Position numbers and translations under genes: made by a program
Notes under the pieces: generated by a model
What the model was told of the DNA's origin: nothing
Databases searched by the model: none
Seen by the model: the letters and a program-made list of their open reading frames with translations, nothing else
Shown here: piece by piece, positions 21,290 to 60,427 of the stretch
Position numbering within the stretch: position 1 is the stretch's first letter
Layout of the letters: every line of letters begins with the position of its first letter
Assembly: GCA_016190665.1 (NCBI GenBank)
Contig: JACPQD010000104.1
Location: forward strand, 124,001 to 188,000
DNA length: 64,000 bases
Origin: Chloroflexota bacterium
GTDB lineage: Bacteria > Chloroflexota > Dehalococcoidia > JACPQD01
Direction: 5' to 3'

Positions 21290-21928
21290 TTGACACAAGC
21301 GGAAGGAGAGATAGAGATCCTTGATCCCCATGTCGAGCCGAAGCTGCGAACGTACCGGCTCGCTCCGCGTCCGGCAGACCTCAAGGGCAAGGTGATCGGC
21401 GTTCTGGAGAATACGAAGCCTAACGCCGCGCAGTTTCTCGATCAGCTTCAGAAGGCTCTCTCCGAGCGAGTCGAGCTTGCCGAGGTGATTATGAGGAGTC
21501 ACCACCCTGGCCGGCATGAAGGCGACATGACTCCCACCCTTCATGAGCTGGCAGAGCGTTGCGATGCGGTGGTCACTGGCGTCGGCATCTGAGGGGGATG
21601 CACCACGTTGAGTCTCAACGATGCGGTTCTGCTGGAGAAGCGGGGGATACCCACGGCCCTCCTCTGCGCCGGCAGTTTCTCCACCGTAGGGCAGCTTCAG
21701 GCTAAGGCCCTCGGGGTCCCGTGGCTCCCTATTGTCGTCGCCCCTTATCCCTTTGGCACTCTCTCCCCGGAGGCACTGAAGAAGGCGGCGGACGAGGCTA
21801 TCGATGAGGTTATCTATGTGCTGACCCAGCCGAGCGAGAAACTCGAGGCGGACTACTTCGAGCGCCACGTGAAAGGTCCTAACCCGTTGAAGGTCCCAAA
21901 GCAAGCCTCGGCAAAGGCCGGAATCTAG
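21290..21928 (+). CDS. UGSC-type selenoprotein A (stand-alone Sec domain), TGA = Sec
   Basis: One frame runs from TTG 21290, behind AAAGGAGG at 21276-21283, to the TAG at 21926-21928, interrupted only by TGA at 21590-21592 (codon 101). Around it the protein reads CDAVVTGVGI-U-GGCTT, and downstream LLEKRGIPT is conserved. Reading the TGA as selenocysteine gives a 212-residue protein with a U-x-x-C redox motif. A hairpin follows at 21606-21620. UGSC selenoproteins are known from marine metagenome surveys (recalled, not searched) with no established function that I know of. The next gene, 10 nt on, encodes module B, fused to this domain elsewhere in the window. Sec is strongly preferred over a pseudogene because six paralogues share the same TGA. 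Confidence 0.85.
21606..21620 (+). promoter_or_regulatory. SECIS-like hairpin of UGSC-A
   Basis: The stem is CGTTGA/TCAACG with loop GTC, beginning 14 nt after the TGA. It is placed where SelB-binding stem-loops lie in bacterial selenoprotein mRNAs. Confidence 0.65.
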
Positions 21929-21938
21929 CGATGGACAA

Positions 21939-22982
21939 ATGGCGATGAACCTGGCGTCAAGCAGGATCAAGGTTGGCAACTCCTACGAGGCGGTAGAAGA
22001 CTACCTCTACGAGCATGGCTGGACGGATGGACTGCCCATCGTGCCTCCAACTGAGGACCGTGTACAGCGCATGTTGGCATCTATGAAGCTCGCGCCAGAC
22101 GATGTAATTGGCGTGATTCCAACTGCCCAGGCGGAGGCTACGGCCGAGAAAGTGGCCATCAATGCGGTCATGGCCGGGTGTCGCCCCGAATACCTGCCCG
22201 TAGTTGTCGCCGCCCTTCGCGCCATGCTGGAGCCGGAGTTTGTGCTGGGCCGCGTCCAGGCCACCACCAACCCGGTCGCGCCCTTCCTTGTCGTCAGCGG
22301 GCCGATAAGAAAAGAGCTGGATATCAACTGCGGCCATGGCGCCCTTGGCCCGGGGAGGCGCTCCAACGCCACCATAGGACGGGCGGTGCGCCTGGTTCTC
22401 CTCAACATAGGAGGGGCGGTCCCCGGGGTGTCCGACATGTCCACTTTGGGGAGCTCGGCGAAGTACACCTGCTGCATCGGCGAAAACGAGGAGGCCAACC
22501 CCTGGGAGCCGCTCCACGTGGAGCGCGGCTTCAGCAAAGATGAGAGCACGGTGATGGTCTTCGGGGCGGTTTGCTTCCGGAACATCGTCGAATCGGAAAG
22601 CAGGAGCGCGGGCAACGTGCTGATCACCCTTGCCGGAGGCATGATTGGCCCCGGCGATTATGGCATGTGCTTCATGTCGGGACAACCGGTCCTCATCCTG
22701 GGCCCTGAACACGCCGAGATCTTCGGAAATGCGGGGATGGCAAAGGTAGATGTCAAAGAGGCGCTGTGGGAGAGGGCCTTTCTCCCCCTTTCCAGTTATG
22801 CCCCTGAACAGAGGGAATCGGTGGTCAATGTGTTGAAGCTGCCCGTCATCGAGGGGAAAATCCACTGCTGCCGCAGACCGGAGGACCTCGTCATCATCGT
22901 GGCCGGCGGCTCCGGCAGCCATTCTCAGTACGTCCAGAACTACTCCGGGCTTCCGGTTATCAAGAAGATAACCGACAGCTAG
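21939..22982 (+). CDS. Module B protein, separate partner of UGSC-A
   Basis: This 347-residue protein corresponds to the C-terminal part of the fused UGSC proteins in the window. Conserved blocks in order: YEHGWTDGLPIVPPT (about residues 25-39), NAVMAGCRPEYLP with the invariant Cys, VVSGPIRKELDINCG, TIGRAVRLVLLNIG, and CIGENEEANPWEPLHVERGF. No signal peptide or membrane segment is apparent. I do not know its activity. Proximity and fusion elsewhere imply that it works with the Sec domain, and the Cys in AGC-x-PE could react with the Sec (inference). The start is about 10 nt after the UGSC-A stop, with no strong ribosome site, so coupling is likely; ATG 21945 is an alternative. Confidence 0.85.
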   Translation: MAMNLASSRIKVGNSYEAVEDYLYEHGWTDGLPIVPPTEDRVQRMLASMKLAPDDVIGVIPTAQAEATAEKVAINAVMAGCRPEYLPVVVAALRAMLEPEFVLGRVQATTNPVAPFLVVSGPIRKELDINCGHGALGPGRRSNATIGRAVRLVLLNIGGAVPGVSDMSTLGSSAKYTCCIGENEEANPWEPLHVERGFSKDESTVMVFGAVCFRNIVESESRSAGNVLITLAGGMIGPGDYGMCFMSGQPVLILGPEHAEIFGNAGMAKVDVKEALWERAFLPLSSYAPEQRESVVNVLKLPVIEGKIHCCRRPEDLVIIVAGGSGSHSQYVQNYSGLPVIKKITDS

Positions 22983-23102
22983 ATAGGCGCCCCGATTATG
23001 ACCGGGCCTGTTCGCAGGGAGGCATCGGCCAGGAGCGGACTTCAACCGACGCTTGCTGGTATTGCTGCGACAAGTAGGCCATCCGCAGAAGAGGAGGTCC
23101 CG

Positions 23103-24781
23103 ATGAACACGAAGGCGGCTGCATTCTCCTCGATGGCTTGCATCCTCACTCTTCTGGGACTGCTGGTAGCCAGTTGCGCTCCGGCGGCCGCTCCGGCCGC
23201 CACAAAGGCGCCTCTCACACCAGCTCCGGCTCCAACCGTTCAGACGGGAGCCGCGCCCACGCCTGCCCCTAAAGCGGCGGGGCCCAGGACCGGCGGCGTG
23301 CTCACTGTGGCCAAACGGCTGCCCATACCCCACTTGGACATGCACCAGGAGATCACCGTCAACATGCAGGCGCCGCTGGCCCCCGTCTATAGCTGGCTCA
23401 TCCAGAACGACCCCATAGGGGATGAGAACAAGATAATAGGGGACCTGGCCAAGAGTTGGGATATTACCACGGACGGCCTCACGTACACCTTCAAGCTTCA
23501 AGATGGGGTGAAGTTCCACGATGGCAGGCCGCTGACCTCCACGGACGTGAAGGCCAGCCTGGACCGCATCATCTTCCCTCCGAGAGGCGTGGTTTCCCCC
23601 CGGCAGGGGCTGTATACGGCCGTGGACAAGATCGAGACCCCGGACGCGCTGACCGTGAAGATAAGCCTGAAGCGCGTCCAGGGTTCCTTCCTGCAGCTTC
23701 TGGCCTTGCAGCACAATTTCATCTTCCCCGCGCATATCTTGAAAGAAAAAGGCGACATGAAGAGAGATGTCGTGGGCACAGGTCCCTTCAAGTTTGTCAG
23801 CGAGATGCGCGGCGTATCTTTCAAGACGCAGCGCAACCCTGAGTACTTCGTAAAGGGGCTGCCCTACCTGGACGGGGTGACCTACTACGAAATCCCGGAT
23901 GACCGAAGCAGGATTGGGCTTTGCGGACCGGACAAGTCCTTGTGCTCCCCTCCTGGGTGGAACCCAGCGGCCCTCAAGTGAGCGAGTTGCTGAAACAGGA
24001 ACCGAAATTCGTGGCGCAGGAGGTGGTGCAGAGCGCCAACCTGGCGGTCAGCTTGAACCTCAGAGCCAAGCCCTGGGACGACATACGTGTAAGGCGGGCC
24101 GCCAATCTGGCCATTGACCGCGAGGCGGTGGCCAAGGTGGTGCGCGGCGGCTTCTATCCCGGATATGGCTATGTGGTCCCCAGGACGCCGTGGACTCTTC
24201 CCGAGGAGGAAATCAGGACTACTCCAGGGTTCCGGCAGCCGAAGGCCCCGGACGTCGCCGAGGCCAAGCGCCTCCTGGCCGAAGCGGGCTATTCTACTGG
24301 CCTCAAGACTACCCTGCTGGTGGCTTCCACCATCGCCAACAAAGAGGCCAGCGAGGCCCTTCAGAACGAACTCGCCAAGGTCGGCGTTGAAGTGACCATA
24401 CGAGTCGTCGAGCAAACCGTGCTCAATGAGTGGCGTCTCAAGCGCCAGTTTGAGGCTGCCATGAGCTCGGAGTCGCCGGTCCATTCTGACCCGGATGTGG
24501 TGCTGGGCGGATTCTACCTGACCGGTAGCCCCATGAACTACGGGGACTGGAGCAACGCCAAGTTCGACGAGCTTTTCGTTGCCCAGAGCACAACCTTAGA
24601 TATGGCGAAGCGGGTCGAAATAGTCAGGGAAATGCAAAGGATCATCCATCAGGAGGCGCCCAAGATCAGCCTGACCTGGGCCAAGCGCTGGGCGGTGTGG
24701 GCGCCGGAGGTGAAGAACTGGAAGGCTGGAATCAATCCGTACTATAACCACAAGATGGACCTCGTCTGGCTGGACAAGTAG
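23103..24781 (+). pseudogene. Family-5 solute-binding lipoprotein, SBP6, frameshifted
   Basis: The gene starts at ATG 23103 behind GAGGAGG with signal peptide and lipobox LVASC (Cys25). It reads as a normal receptor to IPDDRSRI and then loses frame near 23915-23920. The second part continues in the +2 frame (ALRTGQVLV onward) to VWLDK and the stop at 24781. Adding a single base in the GGG run at about 23916-23918 restores 560 codons, the family's usual length here. It may be a real inactivation or an assembly or homopolymer error. The mature protein is most like SBP9 (LDMHQEIT..., YPGYGYV-type central part). It follows the separate module B gene by about 120 nt. Confidence 0.85.
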
Positions 24782-24967: not shown

Positions 24968-26644
24968 ATGCAGACCAGGAACTTGATGGCCAGTTGCTTC
25001 GCAATCGTGGCGCTCTTGCTGGCGGGCTGCGCCCCGCCAGCGGCGCCGGCGTCCGCTCCGAAGGCCGTGGCGCCAAAACCCACGACGGCCGCGACAACTA
25101 CAGCGCCGCCGCCGGGGTCCGCCGCGCCGGCACCAACGCCAAAAACAGCGGGAGAGCAGCCCCGATACGGTGGTTCTTTGGCCCTTCCCGCGGCCGGTGA
25201 CCCGCCAAACCTGGATATCCATAGAAACGTGGGGGGCGTCGTCTTCGGCCGGGTGGGGCCGATTTACAACGGCATAGTCCAGTACGACCAGAGCAACAGA
25301 GTTGTGCCTGACCTGGCGGAGCGCTGGGAGGCGAGCTCTGATGGCAAGGTCTATACTTTCTTCCTTCGCAAGGGCGTAACATGGCACGACGGCAAGCCTT
25401 TTACTTCAGCCGACGCGAAGTTCAGCCTGGAGAGGATTGGACAATATGCGGGTTTGTCACCGTTCACCGGGCCGGTAGACAATACGGAGACGCCTGATCA
25501 GGACACGCTGAAGGTAACCTTGAAGTATCGCCAGGCAGGGTACCTGCCTATCTTGGGTCATGGGAGGATCCTCATTGCGCCGAGGCATCTCGTCGAGGCC
25601 GAGAAGGACCTGAGGCGGGTTGCCATTGGGACTGGCCCCTTCAGGCTCAAGGAGTACCAGGCGGGAGTAAGCTTCAGGGTGGAGAAGAACAGGGAGTATT
25701 TCATCAAAGGACGTCCCTATCTAGATGAGGTTAGCTTCTACACAATAAGAGATGTGTCTACGAGGTTTGCTGCCTTCAGGACAAGAAGGGTCGACATCTA
25801 CGGCCATCCACCCACGAATGGCGAGCTGATGCGCACGCATGCGGATATTCTCAGGAGAGACACTCCTCAGGTGCTAGTGAGGCCTTACGGTTCAATGCAG
25901 GCATATGCTCTCATGCCGAATTGGGACAGGGCGCCCTGGAAGGATGTCCGTGTGAGGCGAGCTGCCTTTCTCGCCGTTGATCGTGAGAAGGGACTGGAGG
26001 TAGTATCAGAAGGCGTTGGAACCCTGGGGATAAGCGTTTTCTACGGCGAATGGGCCCTGCCAATGGAAGAACTGATGAAGGTGCCGGGCTTCAGGAAGCC
26101 CAAGGGCGAGGACATCGCCGAGGCGAAGCGTCTGCTGGCCGAGGCCGGCTATCCCGAAGGCTTGAGAACCACTTTGGTGCTGCGAGGAGACGTGCCGTTA
26201 GCCGAGAAGGCGGCAACATTCGTCAGCGAGCAGCTCTCCACGATCGGCATGGATCTGAGGCTCCAAATCCTTGACTATGGGGTCTACGTCGATGCAAGGC
26301 GTAGGGAAGACTACGATGTCATGGTGATGGTGGCCAACGTTGACCCCCTTGACCCCGACGCCAGTGGTGGTCGTTACATCTCCAGAAAGCTGGGTGCACC
26401 TTGGGCCAGCGGCGACGATGACAAAATACTGGAACTACTCAGCATGCAATCACAGGCAGCAACCGACGCAGAGCGGAAGAAGATAGTTTTCGCGCTTCAG
26501 CACAGGATCGCCGAGGTGGTGCCGCATATCATGATTGCCTGGCAAGGTTCATTCATCGCCTTCTGGCCTCGGGTGAAAGACTACACCGCGGAGAGTGGTA
26601 TCTTCGGGCACAACAAGCTGGAGGATATCTGGCTGGCACAATAG
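24968..26644 (+). CDS. Family-5 solute-binding lipoprotein, SBP7
   Basis: This 558-residue receptor has lipobox LLAGC (Cys21), a linker with several AP/TT repeats, and a domain starting EQPRYGGSLALP and ending DIWLAQ. It pairs with SBP10: both have DIHR, YNGIVQYDQ-type and FYGEWALP segments and a GH-NKLE C-terminus, suggesting similar ligands. AGGAGG precedes the ATG by 7 nt. It is the second of four consecutive receptor genes (SBP6-SBP9) without an enzyme between them. Confidence 0.92.
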   Translation: MQTRNLMASCFAIVALLLAGCAPPAAPASAPKAVAPKPTTAATTTAPPPGSAAPAPTPKTAGEQPRYGGSLALPAAGDPPNLDIHRNVGGVVFGRVGPIYNGIVQYDQSNRVVPDLAERWEASSDGKVYTFFLRKGVTWHDGKPFTSADAKFSLERIGQYAGLSPFTGPVDNTETPDQDTLKVTLKYRQAGYLPILGHGRILIAPRHLVEAEKDLRRVAIGTGPFRLKEYQAGVSFRVEKNREYFIKGRPYLDEVSFYTIRDVSTRFAAFRTRRVDIYGHPPTNGELMRTHADILRRDTPQVLVRPYGSMQAYALMPNWDRAPWKDVRVRRAAFLAVDREKGLEVVSEGVGTLGISVFYGEWALPMEELMKVPGFRKPKGEDIAEAKRLLAEAGYPEGLRTTLVLRGDVPLAEKAATFVSEQLSTIGMDLRLQILDYGVYVDARRREDYDVMVMVANVDPLDPDASGGRYISRKLGAPWASGDDDKILELLSMQSQAATDAERKKIVFALQHRIAEVVPHIMIAWQGSFIAFWPRVKDYTAESGIFGHNKLEDIWLAQ

Positions 26645-30263: not shown

Positions 30264-32000
30264 GTGAGCGAACCCGTCTACGAGGTGGTCTGGCCGCTGG
30301 GCGCGTCTATGTACAATCCGCAAGCGACCGCTCGAGAAGTCACCGACTTGAGCGGGAAGACAGTCTGCCAGTTGTGGGACTGGGTCTTCCGGGGCAATGA
30401 GATATTCCCCGCCGTGGCGGAGATTCTCTCCAAACGTTATCCGGGCATCAAGTTCGTCCACTACGACGTCTTTGGGAACACCCACAGCCCCAAGGAGAGG
30501 GAGATTGTGGCTCATCTTCCTGAGATGCTCCGCGACCAGGGCTGTGACGCGGTTATCTCCGGGGTTGGCGCTTGAGGCAGTTGCACGCCCGCCGTGGTGC
30601 GGGCAAGCGCGGTTGCCGAGAAGGCCGGGGTGCGCAGCGTCTCCCTCGTATCCACGGGTTTTGTGCGGCAGGCTCATGCCATCGCTAAAGCATTGGGAGT
30701 CGAGAACCTCTCCATAGCCGAATATCCCGGCGTTCCTATGATTGACAGTCCGGAGCAACTGCTTGAGAAGGTAGAACAAGTCCTGGTCACAAAGATTGTC
30801 GACGGGCTGGGCGCCCCGGCGAAGGAGAGCAGCAAACCTTCTGAGCCGCAACCCCGGGACATTGTGTACAGGGGGACGCTGAACGAGGTGCAGGACTTCT
30901 TTTATCGTAACATGTGGACGGAAGGGCTGCCGGTCATCCCGCCGACGATCGACAGGGTGGAGGAATTCCTGAGATTCACTGAGCGCTCCGGAGATGAAGT
31001 GATCGGCGTACTCCTGCCCGAGAATCGCCAGGCCACTGTCTGGAACGTCGCGGTCAACGGAGTGATGGCCGGTTGTCGACCGGAGTACATGCCGCTGCTG
31101 CTGGCAGTAGTGGAGGCGATCTCCGACCCGGAGTTCCGCATTGAGGACGCGGGCAGCACTCCCGGGTGGGAGCCGCTCATCGTTCTGAACGGCCCCATCA
31201 TCAAGCAGTTGGACTTCAACTACGGCTCCGGCGTGATGCGGGTGGGTCGGCAGGCCAATACCAGCATAGGCCGGTTTCTGCGGCTGTACATGCGAAACGT
31301 GGCAGGGCTGCGCATTCCGCCCGGGGACACCGACAAAGGGAGCATTTGTCAGACGTTCAACGTGGCGCTGGCTGAGAACGAAGATGCCGTTGCGGAGATC
31401 GGCTGGCAGCCTTTCAGCGTGGACCGAGGCTTCAAGGCCGGCGACAACGTGGTGACTGTGCAAAGCTGTATCAGCATCAGTCCGCCCTGCTACAGCGGGG
31501 GGACCACACCGCAGGAGCACATGGAGACTATCACGGAGATCATCGGACGCCGGTCCGTGGCCTACTGGACGGGCGTCGGCGCCAAAGAGGGCAGAATGCA
31601 CGTGTTGCTTGCGCTGAGCCCGAGCGTGGCCGGAGTGATAGCCAGGGGCGGCTGGAGCAAGGATGACGTGCGTCAGTACCTCTACGAGAATGCGAAGGTT
31701 CCTGCCGGGCTGGTGGAGAAGCTTACTCGCCAGGCGGGCCCTTCCACGTTCACCTTGCGCCGGTTCGTTGAAGAAGGGTTGATATCGAAGGAGTTCGACC
31801 GATCGGATGATCCTGACAGGTTGGTGCCCGTTTTCCTGAGGCCGGACTTCATCGAAATCGCTGTGAGCGGCGACCCCGGCAGGAACCAGAGCAAGGGATA
31901 TGTGCAGAACCAGAAACAAGGGCCGCCGGTCAGCAAGAGGGTAGCTCTGCCGCCCAATTGGGAGCGGATGATCAAGGAGGATGCAGCCAAGGTATCATGA
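30264..32000 (+). CDS. UGSC selenoprotein B fused to module B, TGA = Sec
   Basis: The frame from GTG 30264 (AAGGAG 8 nt upstream) to the stop at 32000 contains one TGA at 30573-30575 (codon 104). Read as Sec, the protein has 578 residues. It starts with DLSGKTVCQLWDWVFRG and reaches CDAVISGVGA-U-GSCTPA, the canonical UGSC motif. A Rossmann-like half then ends in IAEYPGV. Module B begins near residue 205, with GLPVIPPT at about 221 and VMAGCRPEYMP after it. It belongs with UGSC-D and UGSC-F (U-G-[ST]-C-T-P-A group). The stop overlaps an ATG of the MmgE/PrpD gene, implying one operon with SBP9. Confidence 0.88.
30587..30604 (+). promoter_or_regulatory. SECIS-like hairpin of UGSC-B
   Basis: A perfect six-pair stem GCCCGC/GCGGGC with loop CGTGGT begins 12 nt after the TGA. 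It is the strongest of the seven stems, with G-containing apical loop. Confidence 0.75.
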
Positions 32001-32026
32001 AAGATTCTCAAGCACGAAGGAGAATC

Positions 32027-33433
32027 ATGGACCCCGAAGCCGCTTTCGCCAAGCTCATCATCGAGCAGACCTTCGATGGACTGCCGACGGCAGCCGTCGA
32101 GAAGGCTAAGACGGAAATCCTGGACACTCTGGGTGTCACGCTGGCGGGTAGTGGCGCCGAAGGCGCTGAGAAGGTCGTGGCACTGGCCCGGGACCTCGGC
32201 GTCAAGCCGGAAGAAAGCTCGGTGATCGCCTACGGCATCAAGGTCCCCGCAACGCACGCCGCTTTGGCCAACGCCTTTATGGCCCGCAGCGTGGACTACG
32301 ACGACTGCCATGATCTTGCCAGACTCCATGCCGGCGGCGTGGTCATATCGGCCGCCTTCGCCACCGCGGAGCGCAAGGCCGAAGGTCCCGAAGAGCGCAA
32401 GCGAATCGGGAGCGGCGTCAGCGGCAGGGAATTCATCACTGCTGTAGTGCTGGGCGTTGAGGTCATGAGCCGGCTTGGCCTGGCCAGGCAGGAGGACCGG
32501 TGGGCGGGCTGGGCTGCCACAGTGCTCTATGGCTGCTTCGGCGCCGCCGCCGCCTCAGCGCGGCTTCTCGGACTGAGCGAAGAACAGGTGTTGAACGCTC
32601 TGGGAATCGCCTACGGCAGGGCCGCAGGCAACCAGCAGTCAATGAGGGAAGGAGTCCTCACCAAGAACCTCGATGTCGGGGGCGCAGCCCAGGGAGGCGT
32701 GTTCGCCAGCCTGGCGGCGATGAGAGGCCTTACCGGCGCACATCGATGTTTCACCGGCGACCTGGGCATATTCAAGCTGTATCACAAAGGCGCTTATGAC
32801 CCGGTGAAGCTCACCGAAGGACTGGGCGAGACCTTCGAGATCTCCAATTTGGGTTTCAAACCGTATCCGTGCTGTCGGTTCAACCACACCTTCATCGATC
32901 TGGCTATTGCCCTCCGGCAGGAGCACGAGATAGAGCCGGAGGACATCGAGGAAGTGGTCTGCTACATCGACCAGGAGCCGCACCTGGAATTCCACCCTCT
33001 TGAGGAGAAGCAGAACCCCATCACCGTGACCGAGGCCCAATTCAGCGTTCCCTACTGCGTTGCCACTGCCCTGATAAACGGGGCCGTTCGCCTGGATGAT
33101 TTCAGGCCATCGGCCATCGCCGATCCGCGCGCGCTCGCCTTGGCGCGACAGGTGACGCCGAAGCTCGATACAACGTTATACCGAATGAAGGAAATCCCGC
33201 CAGCCGTCGTCGAAATTCGAACGAAGAACGGGGTTTATGCCGGGCGCACCGAACACCCTTATGGCGATCCGAATAAGCCCATGGCACAGGAAGCGCTGGT
33301 CCGCAAGTTCTTCGATTGCGCCGCGCACGCGAGGAAACGACTTTCAGAGCGCGATATATCGAAGGTGATGGACATGGTAGGCAAATTGGAGGAACTCGAC
33401 GACGTCGCGGAAGTGATTCGAATCCTGAGTTGA
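32027..33433 (+). CDS. MmgE/PrpD family protein
   Basis: The 468-residue protein belongs to the MmgE/PrpD family, which includes 2-methylcitrate dehydratase and itaconate-related enzymes acting on small carboxylates in the cytoplasm. Typical features are the N-terminal helical region with ILDTLGVTLAGSG, AFMARSVDYDDCHD, the glycine-rich AYGRAAGNQQS, and a second domain with KPYPCCRFNH. Length is normal. The start at 32027 follows GAAGGAGAATC; an upstream ATG at 31997 overlaps the UGSC-B stop. No other propionate-pathway gene is close, so a methylcitrate role is not supported by context. It may handle a hydroxyacid taken up through one of the adjacent receptors. Confidence 0.88.
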   Translation: MDPEAAFAKLIIEQTFDGLPTAAVEKAKTEILDTLGVTLAGSGAEGAEKVVALARDLGVKPEESSVIAYGIKVPATHAALANAFMARSVDYDDCHDLARLHAGGVVISAAFATAERKAEGPEERKRIGSGVSGREFITAVVLGVEVMSRLGLARQEDRWAGWAATVLYGCFGAAAASARLLGLSEEQVLNALGIAYGRAAGNQQSMREGVLTKNLDVGGAAQGGVFASLAAMRGLTGAHRCFTGDLGIFKLYHKGAYDPVKLTEGLGETFEISNLGFKPYPCCRFNHTFIDLAIALRQEHEIEPEDIEEVVCYIDQEPHLEFHPLEEKQNPITVTEAQFSVPYCVATALINGAVRLDDFRPSAIADPRALALARQVTPKLDTTLYRMKEIPPAVVEIRTKNGVYAGRTEHPYGDPNKPMAQEALVRKFFDCAAHARKRLSERDISKVMDMVGKLEELDDVAEVIRILS

Positions 33434-33491
33434 CGTGTTGCGATTCACGTGAGCATTTCCTGGCGACCATCATGAGGAAAGGGGTCCAAAG

Positions 33492-35189: not shown

Positions 35190-35225
35190 AGTGGCGACCA
35201 CCTGAAATGCTGAGGAGGTAAAGAT

Positions 35226-35795
35226 ATGAGCGGTCCAACAGGGGTAAAACAGGTGCGAATCAGGAGATCTTTTGTGCCCGTTTTGCTGCCGGAGAACGCT
35301 TCAGTGAGGCGAGAGGCAAAGCTGGCGGAGAGGCTCCCCTCCCTTGACGGCGCCACGGTGGGCTTCTATAACAACCGGAAGGCTTTCGCCGCCAACGCTC
35401 TGCCCGCGGTGGACAAGGTCCTTAAAGAGAGAGGCGTGCGCGAGACGTTTGTGGCGTGGGGAACCAGCTCGAACAGGCCTTCCGACGAAATGCTTTCCAG
35501 TCTCGCCCAGGCGGACGCGGTTGTCTTGGCGGGAGCAGATTGAGGCGCCTGTACCTCGTGGCTGCTGTACGCAGCGATAGAGCTCGAAAAAAGGGGCGTA
35601 CCCACAGTCTCCTTTGTCGCCAGCAACTTCTTGCCCACCGTACGATCCACGGCAAAACGCAGAGGATTTGGAAATCTGAATGTCATCGAGATCCACGGGT
35701 CCCCACTTGACCGGGAGAATGTGGAGCAGCAGGTCTTCACTAAGAGACAGCAGATTACAAGCTCCCTGTCTTCGCCCGAGAAGGCGCTGTCGTAG
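35226..35795 (+). CDS. UGSC-type selenoprotein C (stand-alone Sec domain), TGA = Sec
   Basis: The frame from ATG 35226 (GAGGTAAAG upstream) to the TAG at 35793-35795 has one TGA at 35541-35543, codon 106. Read through it gives 189 residues with ADAVVLAGAD-U-GACTSW, followed by AAIELEKRGVPTVSF. This is the U-G-[GA]-C-T group with UGSC-A, E and G. It stands alone, and its module B is the next gene, 76 nt downstream. The C-terminus after SEKALS is shorter than in UGSC-A. Sec is inferred from the paralogues and from the downstream hairpin. Confidence 0.83.
35561..35575 (+). promoter_or_regulatory. SECIS-like hairpin of UGSC-C
   Basis: The stem is GCTGC/GCAGC with loop TGTAC, beginning 18 nt after the TGA. 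This is the most distant and one of the weaker of the seven. Confidence 0.5.
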
Positions 35796-35871
35796 GCTCT
35801 TTGCTCACAGGGATGGGCAGGATTCACAGGATAGGATGATTTCTTGCTGAGAAAGGAACGCCAGGTACGCT

Positions 35872-37077
35872 ATGGATGACACACTGCGGGCGCCGGCAAT
35901 GCCACAGCCGGAGATGATTGATGAAATCACAGTTGACGATGATGGCCTCCCCCATATCGTTTCGGAGCCGGACGCGGCGCAGGTATTTGATGAATTCACC
36001 AGGCGTGGGTGGACCGATGGCTTGCCCATCATACCTCCCACAGAGCCACGAGTGCGCGCCATGTTGGCCGCTACCCAAAGGGCTCCAGACGAGGTCCTGG
36101 GGGAGATGCCTCCCAGCCAGCAAGAGATAACCGTCGAGCTGGTCGCCATCAACGCGGTGATGGCGGGTTGCGTCCCTGAGCAGCTCCCCCTAGCGCTGGC
36201 AATAATTGAGGCCGCCCTGGAGCCAACATTCAACCTTCGCATGGCCCTGGTCACCACCGTCTCCACATGGCCGGTGGCGATTGTCAACGGTCCGATTGTC
36301 AAAGAGCTCTCTTTGAATCACGGCTGGGGTATCCTCGGATCCGGCTTTCGCTCCAACGCGACCATTGGCAGGGTCCTGACTTTATGTGCTACCACGATCG
36401 GCGGTATCCGGCCAGGCTTCGGTGAGAACAAACCCACGTGCACTCCCCTCCGATACGGGCTCTGTCTCGCTGAAGACGAGGAAGTGTCTGGTCTCTTGCC
36501 GATCCACGTGGAGCGGGGTTTCAAGCCAGAGGACAGCGTCGTTACGCTTATCGAATTGACGAATCCGGTCATGTTGCATTTTCCAAGGACCACGGCAGCG
36601 GCTTCAGCAGTTGGCTGGCTTTCCGCGATAGCCTCTCCCATCGCCCAGATCGTGGCGACTGCCGGAGCCGCACCCGATATCGGCCGGGAAGGCAGCAAGC
36701 AGCTACTGATGATTCCGCCGGTGATGGCACAGCGTCTGGTGAAGGATGGCTGGAGCAAGGACGATATCCGTCACTTCCTTTATGAGAACGCTCGAATGCC
36801 GAGAGCGGAAATACACCGGAGGCGAACGCACCCCAGCATGCCCCAGGACGTCACGGAGACTGAGATCAATATCCGGTATGACACCGTCCCTCGATGGGTA
36901 AGGGCGCAAATGTTGGAACCTGCGCACACTGTGCTAAACGAGATGGTCCCCGTTATGAGAGAGCCAGAGGACCTTCTGCTTCTCGTCGGCGGGGCGCGCG
37001 AGGAAACCTGCCAGGGCGCCTTCTTCCCGGGTCACGATCACTGGCAGGAAGTGGTCAGCAAGAAGATCGAAACATAG
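35872..37077 (+). CDS. Module B protein, separate partner of UGSC-C
   Basis: This 401-residue protein has the module B order of motifs: FTRRGWTDGLPIIPPT, NAVMAGCVPEQLP (invariant Cys), IVNGPIVKELSLNHG, NATIGRVLTLCATTIGG, then AEDEEVSGLLPIHVERGF in place of the more usual GENE-ANPW block. An N-terminal extension of about 40 residues (MDDTLRAPAMPQPEM) is absent from the UGSC-A partner. No secretion signal is seen. With the UGSC-A locus it is the second case where the two halves of the fused protein occur as neighbouring genes. Activity unknown. Confidence 0.85.
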   Translation: MDDTLRAPAMPQPEMIDEITVDDDGLPHIVSEPDAAQVFDEFTRRGWTDGLPIIPPTEPRVRAMLAATQRAPDEVLGEMPPSQQEITVELVAINAVMAGCVPEQLPLALAIIEAALEPTFNLRMALVTTVSTWPVAIVNGPIVKELSLNHGWGILGSGFRSNATIGRVLTLCATTIGGIRPGFGENKPTCTPLRYGLCLAEDEEVSGLLPIHVERGFKPEDSVVTLIELTNPVMLHFPRTTAAASAVGWLSAIASPIAQIVATAGAAPDIGREGSKQLLMIPPVMAQRLVKDGWSKDDIRHFLYENARMPRAEIHRRRTHPSMPQDVTETEINIRYDTVPRWVRAQMLEPAHTVLNEMVPVMREPEDLLLLVGGAREETCQGAFFPGHDHWQEVVSKKIET

Positions 37078-37146
37078 TCACCACAGTAAGATGATTATCT
37101 GGCGCGTGTAAGCTGATGAAATCGCAAATGAGTCTGATTCATTAAC

Positions 37147-38670: not shown

Positions 38671-38684
38671 GGAGGATGGACAGA

Positions 38685-40400
38685 ATGTACAGTGCACTGA
38701 GCCCTCTTGGCGAACCAACCATCGAAAAGGCGTCTGCTGCCCCGCGCATTTCAGACTTGAGTGGGAAAACAGTCTGCGAGGTGTGGAATGGAGTCTTCAG
38801 GGGCGACATCACGTTTCCCATAATCCGGGAGCTGCTCCAGAAGCGATATCCAGGCGTCAAGGTGATCCCGTACACCGAGTTTCCTATACCGGACAATCGA
38901 GGAACCACTGCGGAGCTGTTGCGGCGTGTGGATGCGATAGTGGCCCAGGCTATCCAAAGAGGCTGCGACGCTATGATAGTTGGCAATGGTTTCTGAGGGA
39001 CCTGCACGCCCGCGAGTACGCGGCCAGCCGTAGCAGCAGCCAAAGCCGGTATCCCTGCTGTACCGGTCGTAGGCACTACTTTTTTCCGCACAGCCTCCCT
39101 ACTGACATCCTGGGCTGGCGTGCCTGACCTGGGGATTGCCGAATATCCGGGTGCGATCGCACTTCATACGGATGCGGAGATAAGAGAGAATCTTGAGAAG
39201 GTGGCCTTCGACCGGATCATTGAAGGATTGACCAAGCCGGTGAGAAGATCAAGTGTAGCGAGGGAAGGAAAAACGAAGTCAGGGGAAATCGCGTTCGCGG
39301 GCACACTTGAGGAAGTAAACAGGTTCTTCTATGAGAAGGGATGGACGGACGGACTCGCCATAATCCCCCCTACGCCAGAGGCAGTTGAGGAGTTCCTGAA
39401 GTATACGGACCGCTCACCCGATGAGGAAATAGCCGTACTCCCCCAGGCAAACCTGCGCGCTACCCCACGGAATATTGCCGCCAATGCCGTGATGGCAGGG
39501 TGCCGCCCGGAGTTCATGCCGTTGCTGATTGCAGCCGCGGAAGCGATAGGCGACCCGGAGTTCCAGCTAATGAGCATCGGTAGCACCGGCTGCAAGACAC
39601 CCTGGCTGCTGGTGAACGGACCGATTGTGAAACAGTTAGGCATCGAGTACGGCGTGGCGCTTCGCTCGCGTGGCCCGAACCCAGCCATTGGCCGCGCCTT
39701 TGGATTGATGATCCACAACATAGCTGGCTTCAGACCGGGAGAAACATGGATGGGGACCTGGGGCTACTACCTGCCCTTCGTCCTGGCTGAGGATGAAGAT
39801 GCTTGTGATGAGATTGGCTGGGAGCCTTACCACGTGACATATGGTTTCAGCAGAGATGCGAGCACGGTGACGGCGAGAACGACCGTAAACTGGGGTGGCC
39901 AGGGGTGTCCCAGAGCGCCCGTTGCCCCCTCGGCCGAGTCCATTCTCAAAGTTGCCTGTATGCATACGGCGCGGAATACCATGACCGAGTATGCTCTGCG
40001 TTTCGGACCGCGCAACATGGTTGCTGTGCTCCTGACGCGGCCCACCGCCAAAATCCTGGCCGATGCTGGCTACTCAAAGCGCGATGTGGCGAAGTATGTG
40101 TGGGAGAATACGAGGATCAAAGTCGGCGAAATAAACAACATCCTGCAGGCCTGGACCGGCGCCTTCAACGGTATCGGTTTTAGAATACACGACATAGTGG
40201 AGGAAGGCAGACTGCCAAAGTGGTTCGACGTGGGCCCGGAGGAGACCATCCCGATGTTCCCCAGTGCGGACCTGTTGGACATCGTCGTATGCGGAGACGT
40301 GCACAGGGACAAGGTGATGAGCCTCTGGTGTAATTATAACCGGCCCGTCACTAGGGAAGTAAGACTGCCTGCGGGTTGGGGTAAGCTCAAGGGAGGCTAA
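38685..40400 (+). CDS. UGSC selenoprotein D fused to module B, TGA = Sec
   Basis: The frame from ATG 38685 to the TAA at 40400 contains one TGA at 38994-38996 (codon 104), giving 571 residues with Sec. Local sequence is CDAMIVGNGF-U-GTCTPAS, then RPAVAAAKAGIPAV. It is very close to UGSC-F, and both begin MYSALSPLGEPT/MVYNVLSPVGEPT. Module B includes GWTDGLAIIPPT, NAVMAGCRPEFMP and a WGYYLPFVLAEDED block instead of the GENE motif. The start at 38685 is preferred to 38676 because GGAGG lies directly against the earlier ATG. It overlaps the end region of the FAD oxidoreductase. Confidence 0.88.
39010..39023 (+). promoter_or_regulatory. SECIS-like hairpin of UGSC-D
   Basis: The stem is CCGCG/CGCGG with loop AGTA, beginning 14 nt after the TGA. 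Position matches UGSC-F, whose loop differs by one base. Confidence 0.6.
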
Positions 40401-40449: not shown

Positions 40450-42153
40450 ATGTTCAGCAGGAACTTTTCCATCGTGGCCAGTTGCTTCACGATCCTGGGA
40501 TTCTTGTTGGCCAGTTGCGCCCCGACGGCGCAGCCTGCGCCTACCTCGAAGTCCGTGGCGCCGCCAGCGGCCACAGCGAAGGCCGTCACACCGGCGACTC
40601 CGAAGCCCGCGGCGCCCAGCCCCAGCCCCGGGCCAGCAACGGAACAGCCACGCTACGGTGGCATTTTGACTGTGGGCATTGGTGGAGAACCGCCGAGCCT
40701 TGATGTTCATCGGGAGAATAACACCTACAACTTCTCGATTACCGCGGGGGCTTACAATGGTCTGGCAAAATATGACCCCCATGCCTGGCCAGAAGTAAAG
40801 GTAGTTCCCGACCTGGCCACAGGCTGGCAGCTTAGTCCTGATGGTCAAGTCTATACGTTCCAAATTGTAAAAGGGGCGAAGTTCCACGATGGCGCTGCCC
40901 TTACCGCCGAAGACGTTAAATTCTCCCTCGATAGAATTCGCGATGCTCAGCTTGGGTTGGCGAACAGCCCCAGACGCCAGCAGCTTGCGAAAATCGCCAG
41001 CATCGATATCCCGGATAGTTACACCGTCAAGATCGCACTGAAAAGCCCGCAAGCTTCCTTTCTTTCCGTCATAGCCGCTTTCTACTTCGCGGTGATGCCG
41101 AAGCACGCGGTCCTGGAGAAGAAGGGCGACATGACGAGGACCGTGCTTGGAAGCGGCGCTTTCAAGTTCAAGGACTACGCAAGAGGGGTCGGCTTTGAGT
41201 TGGAGAAGAATCCCAACTACTTTGTCCCGGGCAGGCCTTATCTGGACGGCGTCAGGGGTTACATAATTGTGGACCCGTTTACCAGGTTTGCGGCTCTCAG
41301 GACCAGGAACGTCCTTTGGTGGGGGTCCTTCCCGTACATGAGCGTGGCCCAGACGAAAATCATTCAAGAGACGCTGTCCGATAAGATAGTCGTTAAGTGG
41401 GAATTCAACCCTGCCTGGTACGGTGTGATGTTCAATGTAAACCGACCGCCCTGGAACGATGTTCGGCTGCGCCAGGCAGTAAGCATGACCTTTGACCGAA
41501 GGAGGATGCTGTCAATTGGGCTCGAGGGAGCCGGTGTAATGGGCATGGCCGCTCAGCCGCCGGGCGAGTGGGCCCTTCCGGAGGAGGAAATGATTAAGGT
41601 CCCCGGCTATGCCAAGCCAGACCTCGAGGGCGCCAGGAAACTGATGGCAGAGGCAGGCTTCCCGAGGGGACTCAAGACTGAGGCCCTGGTTCAATCAACC
41701 AAAGTGCAGAGAGATGTGGCCACGCTTTTCAAGGATGCCGTCGCCCCGCTCGGCATTGCAGTTGACCTCAACGTAGCGGAGACGACAGTTTACAACGACC
41801 AGCGGTTTAGGAAAGCCTTTGCCACTCTTGCCGGCTCTGCTGGTGCCGGGCACACGGACCCAGACATCCTTCTGGGAGACTTCTATGTAACGGGTTCCAA
41901 TAACAACTGGACCGGATACAGTAATCCGAATTACGACGAACTGTATGTCAAGCAGTCACGAACACTCGACGCGGCGGAGCGACGCAAGATCGTTTGGGAG
42001 ATGCAGAGGATGCTGCTCAGGGATGTTACCATTGCCATAGCTTACTGGAGTAACGTTCCTTACGCGTGGTGGAAAGAGGTCAATGGTTTCACTCCACCGT
42101 CCTTGAGCCACTGGCATTCTTATGGGTACCAGGAGATCTGGCTCGCCAGGTGA
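40450..42153 (+). CDS. Family-5 solute-binding lipoprotein, SBP11
   Basis: This 567-residue receptor has lipobox LLASC (Cys23), a linker of AP/TA/KP repeats to about residue 68, then EQPRYGGILTVGI. It ends EIWLAR. It forms a close group with SBP12, SBP13 and SBP14, which share SLD(V/I)HRE, YDPHAWPE, FTRFAALRT, NPAWYG/HPAWYG and PPGEW segments. GAGGAGG precedes the ATG. It follows UGSC-D by 49 nt and a four-helix membrane protein gene follows it. Confidence 0.92.
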   Translation: MFSRNFSIVASCFTILGFLLASCAPTAQPAPTSKSVAPPAATAKAVTPATPKPAAPSPSPGPATEQPRYGGILTVGIGGEPPSLDVHRENNTYNFSITAGAYNGLAKYDPHAWPEVKVVPDLATGWQLSPDGQVYTFQIVKGAKFHDGAALTAEDVKFSLDRIRDAQLGLANSPRRQQLAKIASIDIPDSYTVKIALKSPQASFLSVIAAFYFAVMPKHAVLEKKGDMTRTVLGSGAFKFKDYARGVGFELEKNPNYFVPGRPYLDGVRGYIIVDPFTRFAALRTRNVLWWGSFPYMSVAQTKIIQETLSDKIVVKWEFNPAWYGVMFNVNRPPWNDVRLRQAVSMTFDRRRMLSIGLEGAGVMGMAAQPPGEWALPEEEMIKVPGYAKPDLEGARKLMAEAGFPRGLKTEALVQSTKVQRDVATLFKDAVAPLGIAVDLNVAETTVYNDQRFRKAFATLAGSAGAGHTDPDILLGDFYVTGSNNNWTGYSNPNYDELYVKQSRTLDAAERRKIVWEMQRMLLRDVTIAIAYWSNVPYAWWKEVNGFTPPSLSHWHSYGYQEIWLAR

Positions 42154-44775: not shown

Positions 44776-44812
44776 AAGACATAGGAGTCAGATTCTGCAA
44801 TAAGGAGCAGAC

Positions 44813-46453: not shown

Positions 46454-46526
46454 TGGTGCCGGTCTCCATGACTACTTTCCCTTGGTGAAGCCGCTAAGAA
46501 CAATATTTCGACGAAGGAAGAGGGCA

Positions 46527-49258: not shown

Positions 49259-50893
49259 ATGACCAATACAATCGCACGCCTGGAAGTCCTGAACCCGGTG
49301 GCCGAGGTGCGGCCCAAGGCAGCGACGCCTGCGCGACGGCTCGATTCGCTCAGCGGCAAGAAGATAGGACTATGGTGGAACACAAAGTCCCACGGAGATA
49401 TAGCCCTGAGCGCCGCCGCCGAGGCGATCGAGCGACGCTTCGAAAACGTGGCGTTTGTCCGCTTCACGCGTCAACTGGACCGTCAGCCAGGACCGTACGA
49501 CCTCGTAAAGAAAAGCGGGTGCGATGCAGTAATTGGCACCACGGGCGACTGAGGAGGCTGTACATCGTGGCTTGCCCACGACTGCGTAGAGTTCGAATTG
49601 ATGGGCATCCCCAGCGTTGGCATCGTGTCCTCCGGATTCACGGCCGTTTGGGAGGCCAGGCATCGTGCCATGGGGATGGATGTACTCCCGAGGGTCCGTG
49701 TGGGTCCGGCGCTAACGGAAATACCCCCGGAGCAAGTGCGCGAGGAGGTCCTGGCCCACGCCGACGACGTGTTCGCGGGACTTACCGAGCAGCCCAGAGT
49801 TCCCACGACGCCCGCGGTAGCTTCAGATCAGTTGCTCAGGTATGAGGGACACGACTTTCTCGATGCGCTGCGAATTCTGAACGGCGACTTCATCCATCGT
49901 GGGTGGGGGGATGGGCTCCCTATTGTGCCGCCGACGCCGGAAGCGGTGGAGGCGATGGTCGCCGGCACGTCGCGCCAACGGGACGAGGTGGTCATCATCA
50001 TGGATCCGGGCCGCGGGATAGCCACTGTAGAAAAGATTGCCATCAACTGTGTGATGGCTGGATGTCGCCCGGAGCACCTGCCTGTGGTGATTGCAGCCAT
50101 AGAGGCGATGTCAGAGCCGCTATTCGGCCTCACTGCGGTTGCCCAATCCACAGGCCCCCAGACGCCCCTCCTGGTCATCAACGGCCCGATCAGGCAGCAG
50201 ATCGGCATCAATTCCGGTATTTGCGCCCTGGGTCCCGGATCGCCCTCGTGGGTAAATACAGTTATAGGCAGGGCGGTCCGTTTGGTGATGATGAATGTGG
50301 GCCATGCCTATCCTGGCGTCATGGATATGGATACCATCGGTTCCCCCAACAAGTACAGCATGTGCGTGGGGGAGAACGAAGAGGCCAATCCCTGGGGCCC
50401 CCTGCACGTCGAACGCGGATTTCGTTCCGATGAAAGCACTGTCACCGTTTTCCCTTGCGGGAGCTGCATCGATGTCCCGGACCTGGTGAGCTGCACGCCC
50501 GAGGCCGTATTGACGACCTTCGCTTACACGGCGAACTCCCCACTCTCGCCCACCTGGTTTTACCTCCAACGAGACACTGCCAAGTTCGAGCATTTGCTGA
50601 TGATTTGTCCCGACCACGCTCGGATTATCGCGGACGCGGGCTGGACCAAGAACGACGTCCGGCGCTTCATGTTCCATAATGCGCGCATCCCGGTGGGCGT
50701 GATTAAGAACCCCACGAGGCCCAGCGCTGTGGCGCCCGGCTGGAAATGGGTCCTCAACCAGCCCGACGATGCGCTGGTCCCGGTAGTGCGGGAGCCCGGA
50801 GACTTTCACATCGTCGTGGTGGGCGCAGCCTCGGGGAAATCGGCCTATGTCTGGGACTGGGCGGCGCCGATCACCAAGCCTATACGCTTCTAG
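49259..50893 (+). CDS. UGSC-type selenoprotein E fused to module B, TGA = Sec
   Basis: Starting at ATG 49259, behind GGAGAGGAG, the frame runs to the TAG at 50893 with one TGA at 49550-49552 (codon 98), giving 544 residues with Sec. Motif: CDAVIGTTGD-U-GGCTSWLAHD, then EFELMGIPS. Module B has WGDGLPIVPPT, NCVMAGCRPEHLP, VINGPIRQQIGINSG and CVGENEEANPWGPLHVERGF, the complete set of blocks. It is close to UGSC-G. The start is supported because the frame also opens earlier (49181) without a ribosome site. Confidence 0.87.
49565..49581 (+). promoter_or_regulatory. SECIS-like hairpin of UGSC-E
   Basis: Six pairs TCGTGG/CCACGA enclose loop CTTGC, beginning 13 nt after the TGA. Confidence 0.65.
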
Positions 50894-55839: not shown

Positions 55840-57546
55840 ATGGTGTACAACGTATTGAGCCCTGTTGGCGAACCGACCGTGAAGGTCGTCGGCGGTGCCC
55901 CTCGCCTGGAAAACCTGAATGGAAAGACGATCTGCGAAGTGTGGAATGGGGGATTCAGGGGGCAGGTGGCGTTTCCCGTTATCCGGGAGCTACTGCAGAG
56001 GCGGTACCGAGACGTAAGCATAGTCCCTTACACGGAGTTCCCCATTCAGGATGTCATAGGCAGCACGGAACGGCTCCAGGAGCTTGTGGAGATAGTGGTT
56101 CGCCTGGCAAAGGAAAAGGGCTGCGACGCCATGATAACTGCTATGGGCTTCTGAGGCACTTGCACGCCCGCGTGTACGCGGCCGGCTGTCGCAGCCGCCA
56201 AAGCTGGCATCCCAGCGGTGGTTATCACGGGTCCGACCTTCGTGCGGCTTGCTTCCCTGGTGGCCACCTGGGCTGGAGCGCCTGGGCTGGGCGTCGCCGA
56301 ATACCCTGGCGCGGTCCAGCTTCACACAGATGCACAGATACGAGCGAATGTGGAGAAGCTGGTCTTTGACCGTATCGTGGAAGGGCTGACCAAACCGGTA
56401 GACGCGGCGGGTGCGGCGAGCGGCCCCAGAAAGCCCGGCGAGGTCGTCTTCAGCGGGACCCTCGATGAGGTGAGCAAGTTCTTCTCCGAGAGGGGATGGA
56501 CGGATGGCCTCGCCATAAACCCTCCCACTGTGGAGAAGGTCGAGGAGTTTCTTAAGTACACCGACCGCTCCCCAGATGAAACAATCGCCGTACTGCCCCA
56601 GGCCAACCTGGCAGCTACCCCACGGAACATCGCGGCCAACGCAGCGATGGCTGGATGCCGCCCGGAGTTCATGCCGCTTCTGATTGCGGCCGTGGAAGCC
56701 ATCGGAGATCCGGACTTCCAGCTGGTGAGCATCGGCAGTACGGGCTGCAAGACGCCCTGGTTACTCGTAAATGGGCCGATTGTGAAACAGTTGGGCATCG
56801 AATTCGGCGTGGGGGCTCGTTCTCGCGGGCCCAACCCTGCCCTGGGCCGCGCCTTCGGCCTGATCATCAACAACATAGCCGGTTTCAAGCCTGGAGAGAC
56901 GTGGATGGGGACCTGGGGCTACTACTTACCCTTCGTTCTTGCCGAGGATGAAGATGGCTGCGCCGAGGTCGGGTGGCAGCCCTACCACGTTGCGCACGGT
57001 TTCAACAGCGACACCAGTACCGTGACCGCGAGGACTACCGTGTATTGGGGTGGCCAGGGCTGTCCCAAGACGCCTGCTGCCCCCTCGGCGGAGTCGATCC
57101 TCAAGGTGGCCTGCAAACACCAGGAGAGAAACACCACCACGGAGTATTCTTTGCGCTTCGGGCAGCGTAACATGGTTGCCATGCTCATGACGCGCCCTAC
57201 CGCCAAGGTACTGGCCGATGCCGGCTACTCGAAACGGGACGTGGCGAAGTACATCTGGGAGAATACGCGGGTCACCGTGGGCCATGAGAACGATCTGCTG
57301 CAAGCCTTCAGCGGTGTTGGCCTTACGGTGCACGAGCTAGTTGAATTGGGAAGATTGCCGGAGTCTTTCGATCTCGGCCCGGAGGCAACCGTTCCCATAT
57401 TCGCCGACGCCGACCTGATCGACGTCGTCATGTGTGGGGACGTGTACAGAGACAAGTTGATGAGCCTCTGGTGCAACTACAACCGGCCAGTCAGCAGGGA
57501 GATAAAGCTGCCGCCGAACTGGGACAAGCTGTTGGCTCAGAGGTAG
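55840..57546 (+). CDS. UGSC selenoprotein F fused to module B, TGA = Sec
   Basis: The frame from ATG 55840 to the TAG at 57546 has one TGA at 56152-56154 (codon 105), giving 568 residues with Sec. Motif: CDAMITAMGF-U-GTCTPACTRPAV. It is close to UGSC-D throughout, including LNGKTICEVWNGGFRG at the N-terminus and WMGTWGYYLPFVLAEDED in module B. The module B Cys lies in NAAMAGCRPEFMP. AGGAGTCGGAC lies upstream of the start. The second hydroxyacid dehydrogenase starts 5 nt after its stop, so they must be co-transcribed. Confidence 0.88.
56168..56181 (+). promoter_or_regulatory. SECIS-like hairpin of UGSC-F
   Basis: The stem is CCGCG/CGCGG with loop TGTA, beginning 14 nt after the TGA. Confidence 0.6.
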
Positions 57547-58619: not shown

Positions 58620-58624
58620 AAAGA

Positions 58625-58700
58625 AGCTTTCAGCCTTCAGCAATCAGCGGTCAGCAAGCCATCAGTTTGCTAAAGTCTGATGGCTGAGCGCTGGAAGCTC
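58625..58700. repeat. TCAGC-rich intergenic repeat
   Basis: Units such as AAGCTTTCAGCCTTCAGC and GTCAGCAAGCCATCAG with partly complementary TCTGATGGCTGAGCGCTGG can form a long imperfect stem. It is related to the stretches at 49146 and 52997. Confidence 0.6.
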
Positions 58701-58774
58701 TATCCGCCTTTCTTCTGCGTTTCATGGCCAGGTTAGGGAGATTGCCGCAAGGAAGCGAGACCAGGAGGTTGGAC

Positions 58775-60427
58775 ATGACTTTCCGAGGCAATGCCGGGGA
58801 GGGCATCCTCGAGGTGCTGGGCCCGGTAGCCTTAGTAGGCAGCAAGGCCATCCGTCCGGCGTCCCGCCTTGGAGTTCTCAGTGGCTGCAAGATTGGCCTC
58901 TACTGGAACACAAAGCCGGGGGGAGATCTCGGTCTGGAAGAGGTCGCAAGACTGCTGGAGGAGAGATTCCAGGACCTGAAGTTTGAGAGATTCTCCTGCG
59001 GCCATCCCCATGGCAAGGAGATTCTGGAGAAGGTGGCGAAGAGCGGCTGCGACGCTATAATTGGCGCTACTGCCGACTGAGGGGCCTGCACGTCGTGGCT
59101 TGCCCACGACATGGTGGAGTTCGAGAAGAACGGAATGCCCACAGTGACCATGACGTCCGACGGGTTCGAGACCGATGCCCGAGCTACCGCCAGGGGCCTC
59201 GGCCTGAAACAGATTGCCCTGGCGATGCTCTCATCGCCGCTGACCAACCTTTCACCGCAAGACACACGAAGGGAAGCCGCCAACAGCTTCAGCAGCATCG
59301 TCGAAGGCTTGACGCGGGAGCTCAAGCCTACGCTGGCTGAAGACAAGCCTGCTCTGGAGACCTTACGCTTCGCCGGGGCCGACCGCTATGAGGCCGTCGA
59401 GGAGATGAATCGATTCTTCCTCAGGAACGGCTGGGGAGACGGCTTTCCCCTGGTCCCTCCCACTCTTGAGAAGGTCGAGAGAATGCTGGCGGGTACGACG
59501 CGTTCTCCGAAGGGCATCGTGGCCGCTCTGGAACCGGGGATGGGAGAGGCCACCGTAGAGAAGATCGCCATCAATGCTGTTATGGCCGGATGTTTGCCGG
59601 AGCACATGCCGGTGATTGTCGCTGCGGTGGAAGCCATGTCAGACTTCAGGTTCAACATGAGGAGCGTAGCTTGCTCCACATGTCCCCATGCCCCGATTCT
59701 CATCATAAACGGTCCCATCGCCAAAGAGCTGAACATCAATTCCGGCAAGGGGGCGCTTGGCCCCGGAGCCCAGTCCTTCGCCAACACGGTGATTGGCAGG
59801 GCCATCAGGCTCATCATAATGAATATCGGACTTGCCTATGTGGGCGAGTTAGACATGGATACCATCGGCTCTCCCAACAAGTACAGCATGTGTCTTGCCG
59901 AGAATGAAGCGAAGAACCCCTGGGAGCCTTATCATGTGGAGAGAGGCTTTGACAAGGACACGAGCACCGTTACCGTCTTCGGTGTGGAGTCGCAGATTGA
60001 AGTGACGGACTTGAGGAGCTACACGCCGGAGCATGTCCTCCAGTCATACGCTGGCACGGCCAACGGCGCTGGCGCCTGCTCGGTGAGCGCCTGGCTGCAG
60101 GGCAACCGCATCTGGCAGAATTTCTTGCTCATCTGCCCTGAGCACGCCAAGATCATCGCTGATCACGGATGGTCAAAACGAGACGCCAAGGAGTTTCTCT
60201 ACCACAACGCTCGCATCGAGTGGCGCTATCTCAAGTATGGGAACGCCCTTGACCCGGCGCGCATAGTCCCTTCATGGAGGTGGCTTCTCAATGCGCCCGA
60301 AGACACGCTGGTTCCTGTCTCGGGTGGCCCGGAATGGTTCCATATCGCAGTGGTGGGGGGACCGGTGGGGAAGTCCGCTTACCTGACTGGCGTTGGCGAG
60401 CCGGTAACGGTGGAGATCAAGAAGTAG
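58775..60427 (+). CDS. UGSC-type selenoprotein G fused to module B, TGA = Sec
   Basis: The frame from ATG 58775, behind AGGAGG, to the TAG at 60427 has one TGA at 59078-59080 (codon 102), giving 550 residues with Sec. Motif: CDAIIGATAD-U-GACTSWLAHD, then EFEKNGMPT. Module B carries WGDGFPLVPPT, NAVMAGCLPEHMP, IINGPIAKELNINSG and CLAENEAKNPWEPYHVERGF. It resembles UGSC-E most. It is followed by SBP15 after 74 nt. Confidence 0.87.
59092..59110 (+). promoter_or_regulatory. SECIS-like hairpin of UGSC-G
   Basis: Seven pairs GTCGTGG/CCACGAC enclose loop CTTGC, beginning 12 nt after the TGA; this is the UGSC-E stem extended by one pair. Confidence 0.7.

Follow-up and report, generated by a model that had tools for sequence, protein, structure and literature searches.

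The window analyzed here comprises 64,000 nucleotides of contig JACPQD010000104.1 (positions 124,001 to 188,000) from a Chloroflexota bacterium of the class Dehalococcoidia, and contains seven genes of the UGSC selenoprotein family in which an in-frame TGA is evidently read as selenocysteine (Sec, U). Each of the seven frames has one internal TGA and runs without a further in-frame stop until its terminator. The Sec codons begin at window positions 21590, 30573, 35541, 38994, 49550, 56152, and 59078; in the same gene order they are codons 101, 104, 106, 104, 98, 105, and 102, counted from the starts in the original prediction, and lie within the motifs UGGCT, UGSCT, UGACT, UGTCT, UGGCT, UGTCT, and UGACT. 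That prediction, made from the sequence alone, had described seven frames with a single TGA at codons 98–106, the pattern U-G-[G/S/A/T]-C-T, and no other interruption, all of which was confirmed. A Shine–Dalgarno-like purine run (AGGAGG to GGAG) is present upstream of the start in every frame. The proposed membership of the UGSC family is also borne out, with all seven matching the Pfam model PF24696 at 84–158 bits (gathering cut-off 25 bits) from model positions 1–3 to 168–172 of 172. Their scores against NCBIfam NF041046 are 51.9–115.6 bits, under the 125-bit equivalog cut-off, and the genes are UGSC members at the family level that fall outside NCBI's narrower equivalog.

These genes occur in two forms. 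Two are short (~190–210 residues), and in both cases the next gene encodes a separate protein, U1, which we take to be the ‘Unknown_1’ of the Global Ocean Sampling (GOS) survey (PMC2398784); the other five are UGSC-U1 fusions of ~545–580 residues with U1 as the C-terminal domain. The first short gene (21290..21928, plus strand, as are all window features given in the form start..end; PF24696 158 bits) has an AAGGAGG motif before its start, the Sec TGA at 21590–21592, and a TAG terminator. Directly 3′ of it is a stand-alone U1 gene (21939..22982, within a frame spanning 21891–22982 that has candidate ATG/GTG starts at 21939 or 21945), with 39% identity to a fused U1 domain elsewhere in the genome (C99:145954-146781). 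The second short gene (35226..35795; 112 bits; TGA 35541–35543) precedes a U1 gene at 35872..37077 that has no Pfam or NCBIfam match and is 35–38% identical to residues ~200–520 of the fusions. The fusions are found at 30264..32000 (101 bits; Sec TGA 30573–30575), 38685..40400 (84 bits; 38994–38996), 49259..50893 (107 bits; 49550–49552), 55840..57546 (89 bits; 56152–56154; 72% identity to the 38685 gene), and 58775..60427 (115 bits; 59078–59080). Five of the seven genes end in TAG and the 38685 gene in TAA; the 30264 gene ends in TGA (31998–32000) and uses UGA both ways, as Sec codon and as terminator. Its Sec codon and the adjoining SECIS-like hairpin (Sec insertion sequence; 30573..30626) have a minimum free energy of −23.6 kcal/mol.

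The window holds about 4% of the UGSC family of its own genome (G000; 4,998,043 bp, 96.6% complete). A PF24696 search of this genome gave at least 150 matches, and a catalogue made by iterated hidden Markov model (HMM) searches of 0.91 Mb around these matches and those of a full-length protein search contains 182 full UGSC domains. TGA occupies the Sec column in 176 of these, a number that is a lower bound. The original prediction of an unusual Sec capacity devoted to one family was thus correct and understated. Chance can be excluded, because 176 of 182 domains share TGA in one column and the remaining 31,851 domain codons include only three TGAs. None of the 182 has Cys, TAA, or TAG at the Sec column, so that the reported lack of Cys-for-Sec copies holds for the window and for the whole catalogue; stop codons of other types at this position, named as a possible refutation, occur in no catalogued homologue. 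Alignment with homologues had been suggested as a check for Sec/Cys exchange at the column, and such exchange does occur, with Cys present at the Bacillota loci L063 and L064. The six exceptions in the catalogue carry Ser (four), Gly (one), or Gln (one), lie on contigs C101, C58, C62, C20, C11, and C17, and have mostly lost the second Cys too; they are possibly catalytically dead paralogues.

Several features of these genes point towards decoding of UGA as Sec. The ratio of nonsynonymous to synonymous substitution rates past the TGA has a median of 0.116 (47 pairs) compared with 0.168 upstream, a sign of purifying selection on the part of the gene that follows this codon. At the TGA the mean folding energy falls to a low (z −7.8 compared with synonymously recoded versions) and at four control offsets it stays within ±2 standard deviations; the start of the apical loop peaks 17–19 nucleotides past the UGA, in line with a SECIS-type hairpin directly 3′ of it. 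RNAalifold identified a consensus hairpin in each of three subfamilies (TS, TT, and TA) and no common structure over all 176 SECIS regions, probably because hairpin registers vary by subfamily. Genes for the Sec machinery are also present, with selB (353 bits), selA (568 bits), and selD (386 bits) all scoring over curated cut-offs and selD carrying its own in-frame TGA. At the same time, TGA remains an ordinary stop in this genome, terminating 43 of 174 UGSC genes and 100 of 341 long neighboring open reading frames (ORFs) in the catalogued regions. TAG is the commonest stop in the latter set (193 ORFs, with TAA in 48; the window has 59% GC), a preference that is possibly linked to heavy recoding of UGA. 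The combined evidence from the sequence indicates that at least 176 paralogous UGSC genes read in-frame UGA as Sec.

Two observations weigh against this picture of Sec decoding in a greatly expanded family. The original prediction had named selA, selB, selC, and selD as a check, and the last of these was not found in the draft genome by three methods (Rfam RF01852, an anticodon/T-arm pattern, and a class-specific covariance model); the best Rfam tRNA-Sec matches in the genome were ordinary tRNAs with tRNA-Ser at the top, and the contig stretches bearing selA and selB gave chance matches only. This absence is what would favor a suppressor tRNA that decodes UGA as Cys or some other amino acid. 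Such decoding is highly improbable given the presence of the other three sel genes, the TGA within selD itself, the SECIS-like structure tied to the UGA, and the continued use of TGA as a terminator; moreover, the pattern search found no tRNA with a UCA anticodon in the genome. A canonical UCA tRNA-Sec is present in relatives that share these genes and scores above cut-off in nine of 11 members of the class, including G027 with its 46 UGSC matches. Because these relatives, among them one rich in UGSC genes, have tRNA-Sec, selC is likely to be missing through an assembly gap. In G027 the tRNA-Sec gene is located ~1.5 kb from a UGSC gene (C102:16143-16634 and C102:18137-18230, L228). The other observation is that the genome is a draft, a metagenomic bin of 107 contigs with an estimated contamination of 6.13%, in which a mixture of strains or species could have inflated the copy number. 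The 176 genes are spread over 51 contigs, of which C99 carries 25 and C9 carries 22 (each contig ~350 kb). Nearest paralogues are at most 89.9% identical (median 71%). With no pair reaching 90% identity and 25 copies on one 350-kb contig, a mixture of strains does not account for the copy number. Several clades of 17–36 copies are made up of this genome alone, and a relative with 1% contamination has 46 UGSC matches. An artefact of binning thus has very little to recommend it, and we regard Sec decoding and the expansion of the family as nearly certain.

The relatives searched for UGSC were all from the same class and none from the same family. UGSC genes occur in 132 of the 393 genomes of the class sample, mostly in a handful of copies. 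First-look candidates numbered ~207 in the genome of the window, 50 in G027, and 35 in G044, the next highest in the sample. A tree of 226 UGSC domains contains genome-specific radiations of 36, 26, and 17 copies together with many older lineages. As a separate observation, a genome of the same class (G013; 1.52 Mb, 47% GC) encodes about eight proteins that open with RRDFMK, a signal characteristic of reductive dehalogenases, which would fit an assignment of the class to the Dehalococcoidia of the Chloroflexota.

Gene neighborhoods show that UGSC is coupled to U1, and in many cases to a solute-binding protein. The catalogue contains 61 short genes and 115 fused to U1. A stand-alone U1 gene lies within 600 bp of 42 of the 61 short genes, always in the same direction, compared with five of the 115 fused genes, the pattern classically left when two separate partner genes become fused. 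U1 (~380 residues) is conserved and matches no Pfam or NCBIfam model; a conserved Cys is found in 70 of 80 sequences, and the conserved residues in the 38685 protein are W220, C273, E369, W379, and K465. Lipoprotein genes of the SBP_bac_5 type occur within 600 bp of 64 of the 115 fused genes (64 of 64 on the same strand) and 29 of the 61 short genes (27 on the same strand), and these counts are lower bounds since many sequence stretches ended ~2.3 kb from the domain match. In G027, which belongs to another family, 28 of 29 UGSC domains have TGA, the genes are almost always beside U1, and ten SBP matches lie nearby. As judged from these arrangements, UGSC is joined to U1 as an adjacent co-directional gene or by fusion, and many of the resulting units stand beside a diverged SBP_bac_5 lipoprotein.

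The SBP_bac_5 paralogues are a second giant expansion, with at least 129 in the 0.91 Mb and hardly any permease genes nearby; a simple ATP-binding cassette permease motif was found in one ORF only in the catalogued regions. Window members lie within 6509–62211 and include 14 near full-length paralogues and a fragment at 23921–24781. For example, one gene of the paralogue cluster (24968..26644) has NCBIfam peptide/nickel solute-binding protein matches below cut-off, and another (40450..42153; PF00496 237 bits) begins 50 bp 3′ of the 38685 fusion. A further cluster member follows the last fusion as a listed ORF at 60274..62211; it overlaps the 58775 gene, and its true start is probably downstream. 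Other genes near the modules (13093–19018 and 31958–47255) encode catabolic enzymes, namely an aldehyde ferredoxin oxidoreductase, an old-yellow-enzyme type reductase, MmgE/PrpD, an FAD_binding_2 oxidoreductase, a thiamine pyrophosphate (TPP) enzyme, and a LUD-domain protein.

A probable relative of UGSC is protein B of the glycine, sarcosine, betaine, and D-proline reductases. Alignment of UGSC by hhalign with the Sec domain of full-length GrdB from class relatives gave a probability of 94.6% (E 7e-8) and with PrdB-like proteins 85.7%, in both cases with Sec on Sec, compared with 0.1–0.2% for controls. In direct HMM searches the UGSC genes match the GrdB model TIGR01918 (~430 residues in full) only at ~326–406, in the same register and at ~19–20 bits, below its cut-off of 65 bits. 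The UGSC core is thus very probably homologous to the Sec domain of protein B. The range of chemistry open to GrdB-like proteins is shown by Cloacibacillus, in which cleavage of the C–F bond of fluoroacetate (defluorination) is proposed to be the work of a GrdB-like pair (PMC10838667). Two more TGA-containing PrdB/GrdB-like genes are present in the genome of the window, at L188 (C9:215040-215648) and at C71:101463-101960.

Structure prediction by AlphaFold2 gave mean local confidence scores (pLDDT) of 92.9 for the 38685 fusion and 90.5 for a short form. The UGSC part is modeled as an alternating alpha/beta, flavodoxin-like domain, with WrbA, flavodoxin, and lumazine synthase among its matches at modest TM-scores (template modeling scores), and Sec is placed directly after a central strand and before a helix. 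The models do not support the thioredoxin-like fold suggested earlier for UGSC. Sequence searches of the PDB with UGSC-U1 and short-UGSC profiles gave chance or low-complexity matches only, nor did a GrdB query retrieve a relative of known structure. For the U1 part of the fused model, Foldseek returned no convincing PDB match (best E 1.6e-3, TM 0.16).

Taken together, these findings lead us to infer that each unit works as a catabolic module, in which the lipoprotein would capture a small organic substrate that would be taken up through shared permeases. In the cytosol, the Sec of UGSC, at the strand end and helix start of the flavodoxin-like domain, would attack the substrate as a selenolate and cleave a C–N, C–halogen, or similar bond. 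The partner Cys of the UxxC motif, and possibly the conserved Cys of U1 as well, would then resolve the oxidized or substituted selenium. As the module was duplicated and its copies diverged, the organism would have gained specificities for a wide range of substrates. The UGSC core appears homologous to the Sec domain of protein B, which suggests that many imported substrates are cleaved reductively; selenolate attack with such cleavage is our favored working hypothesis, held with moderate confidence. That diverged copies act on different substrates was an inference of the original prediction and remains one, strengthened by their pairing with diverged solute-binding proteins.

Three points weigh against the catabolic interpretation. 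The N-terminal half of GrdB is not present in UGSC proteins, the C-terminal Sec domain alone being common to both; U1 was considered as a GrdE homologue and rejected, with hhalign giving 0.1% against the GrdE-like ORFs of L180; and a solute-binding protein lies within 600 bp for about half of the modules. Without this half of GrdB and with a partner other than GrdE, UGSC-U1 is not a glycine reductase, but its mode of action may be similar. The proteins could instead be thiol or selenol oxidoreductases for redox defense, similar to peroxidases or disulfide reductases, with copies that differ in their partner proteins and not in their substrates; the GOS survey suggested such a function for a ‘Trx-like’ UxxC protein. 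Redox selenoproteins typically carry a UxxC motif, and UGSC was listed among thiol-oxidoreductase-like or thioredoxin-fold families in the GOS survey (PMC2398784). However, the predicted sheet is flavodoxin- or Rossmann-like, the apparent homology is to a substrate-cleaving protein, and more than 100 copies, many beside solute-binding proteins, suit catabolism better than defense; a role in redox defense therefore seems unlikely. A Sec-decoded UGSC family working as catabolic modules is the best overall explanation and, on balance, a probable one. We put forward more tentatively, as a possibility that may well not hold in full, that UGSC-U1 proteins form a new, modular class of Sec-dependent reductive enzymes that degrade or respire around a hundred small organic compounds, many with their own uptake lipoprotein, in what would be the bacterium with the greatest known dependence on selenium.

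As a rule, bacteria invest selenium in no more than a few dozen proteins. With at least 176 Sec codons, the UGSC family here accounts, by rough estimate, for one gene in 25 to 30, and this scale challenges ideas on the cost of UGA recoding and on selenium supply. The expansion suggests that unrecognized Sec chemistry may lie behind a whole catabolic strategy, and homology to protein B provides an enzyme hypothesis that can be tested for a family so far uncharacterized. Because such genes are shortened or omitted in standard annotation, similar biology is probably hidden in many environmental genomes.

Parts of this system have been described before. The UGSC family (PF24696, NF041046) is known from the GOS and Olavius metagenome surveys, and its fusion to ‘Unknown_1’ has also been reported (PMC2398784); the copy number, the recurrent module with a solute-binding protein, the relationship to protein B, and the assigned fold appear to be new, since they were not found in the open-access literature searched. 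The genes described here share with the known family the domain, the U-G-x-C motif, and the predominance of Sec with rare Cys homologues. They differ in having at least 176 copies in one genome, a recurrent association with SBP_bac_5 lipoproteins, a predicted fold that is flavodoxin-like and not thioredoxin-like, and, for the window copies, scores below the NCBIfam equivalog cut-off. In comparison with GrdB, GrdF, GrdH, and PrdB (TIGR01918, TIGR04483), the Sec-bearing domain appears homologous with Sec in register, and substrate-specific subunits multiply by duplication, as in Cloacibacillus; in contrast, UGSC is without the N-terminal half of GrdB, its partner U1 is unrelated to GrdE, and the scale is far greater. 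The largest published bacterial selenoproteomes comprise 57 genes in the Delta1 symbiont of Olavius algarvensis and 63 in a Methylomirabilota metagenome-assembled genome (PMC13188914). These are likewise selenoprotein-rich bacteria using the SelABD and SECIS route, but their counts span many families, whereas the one family described here is nearly three times the size of the largest complete bacterial selenoprotein set found in the open-access literature.

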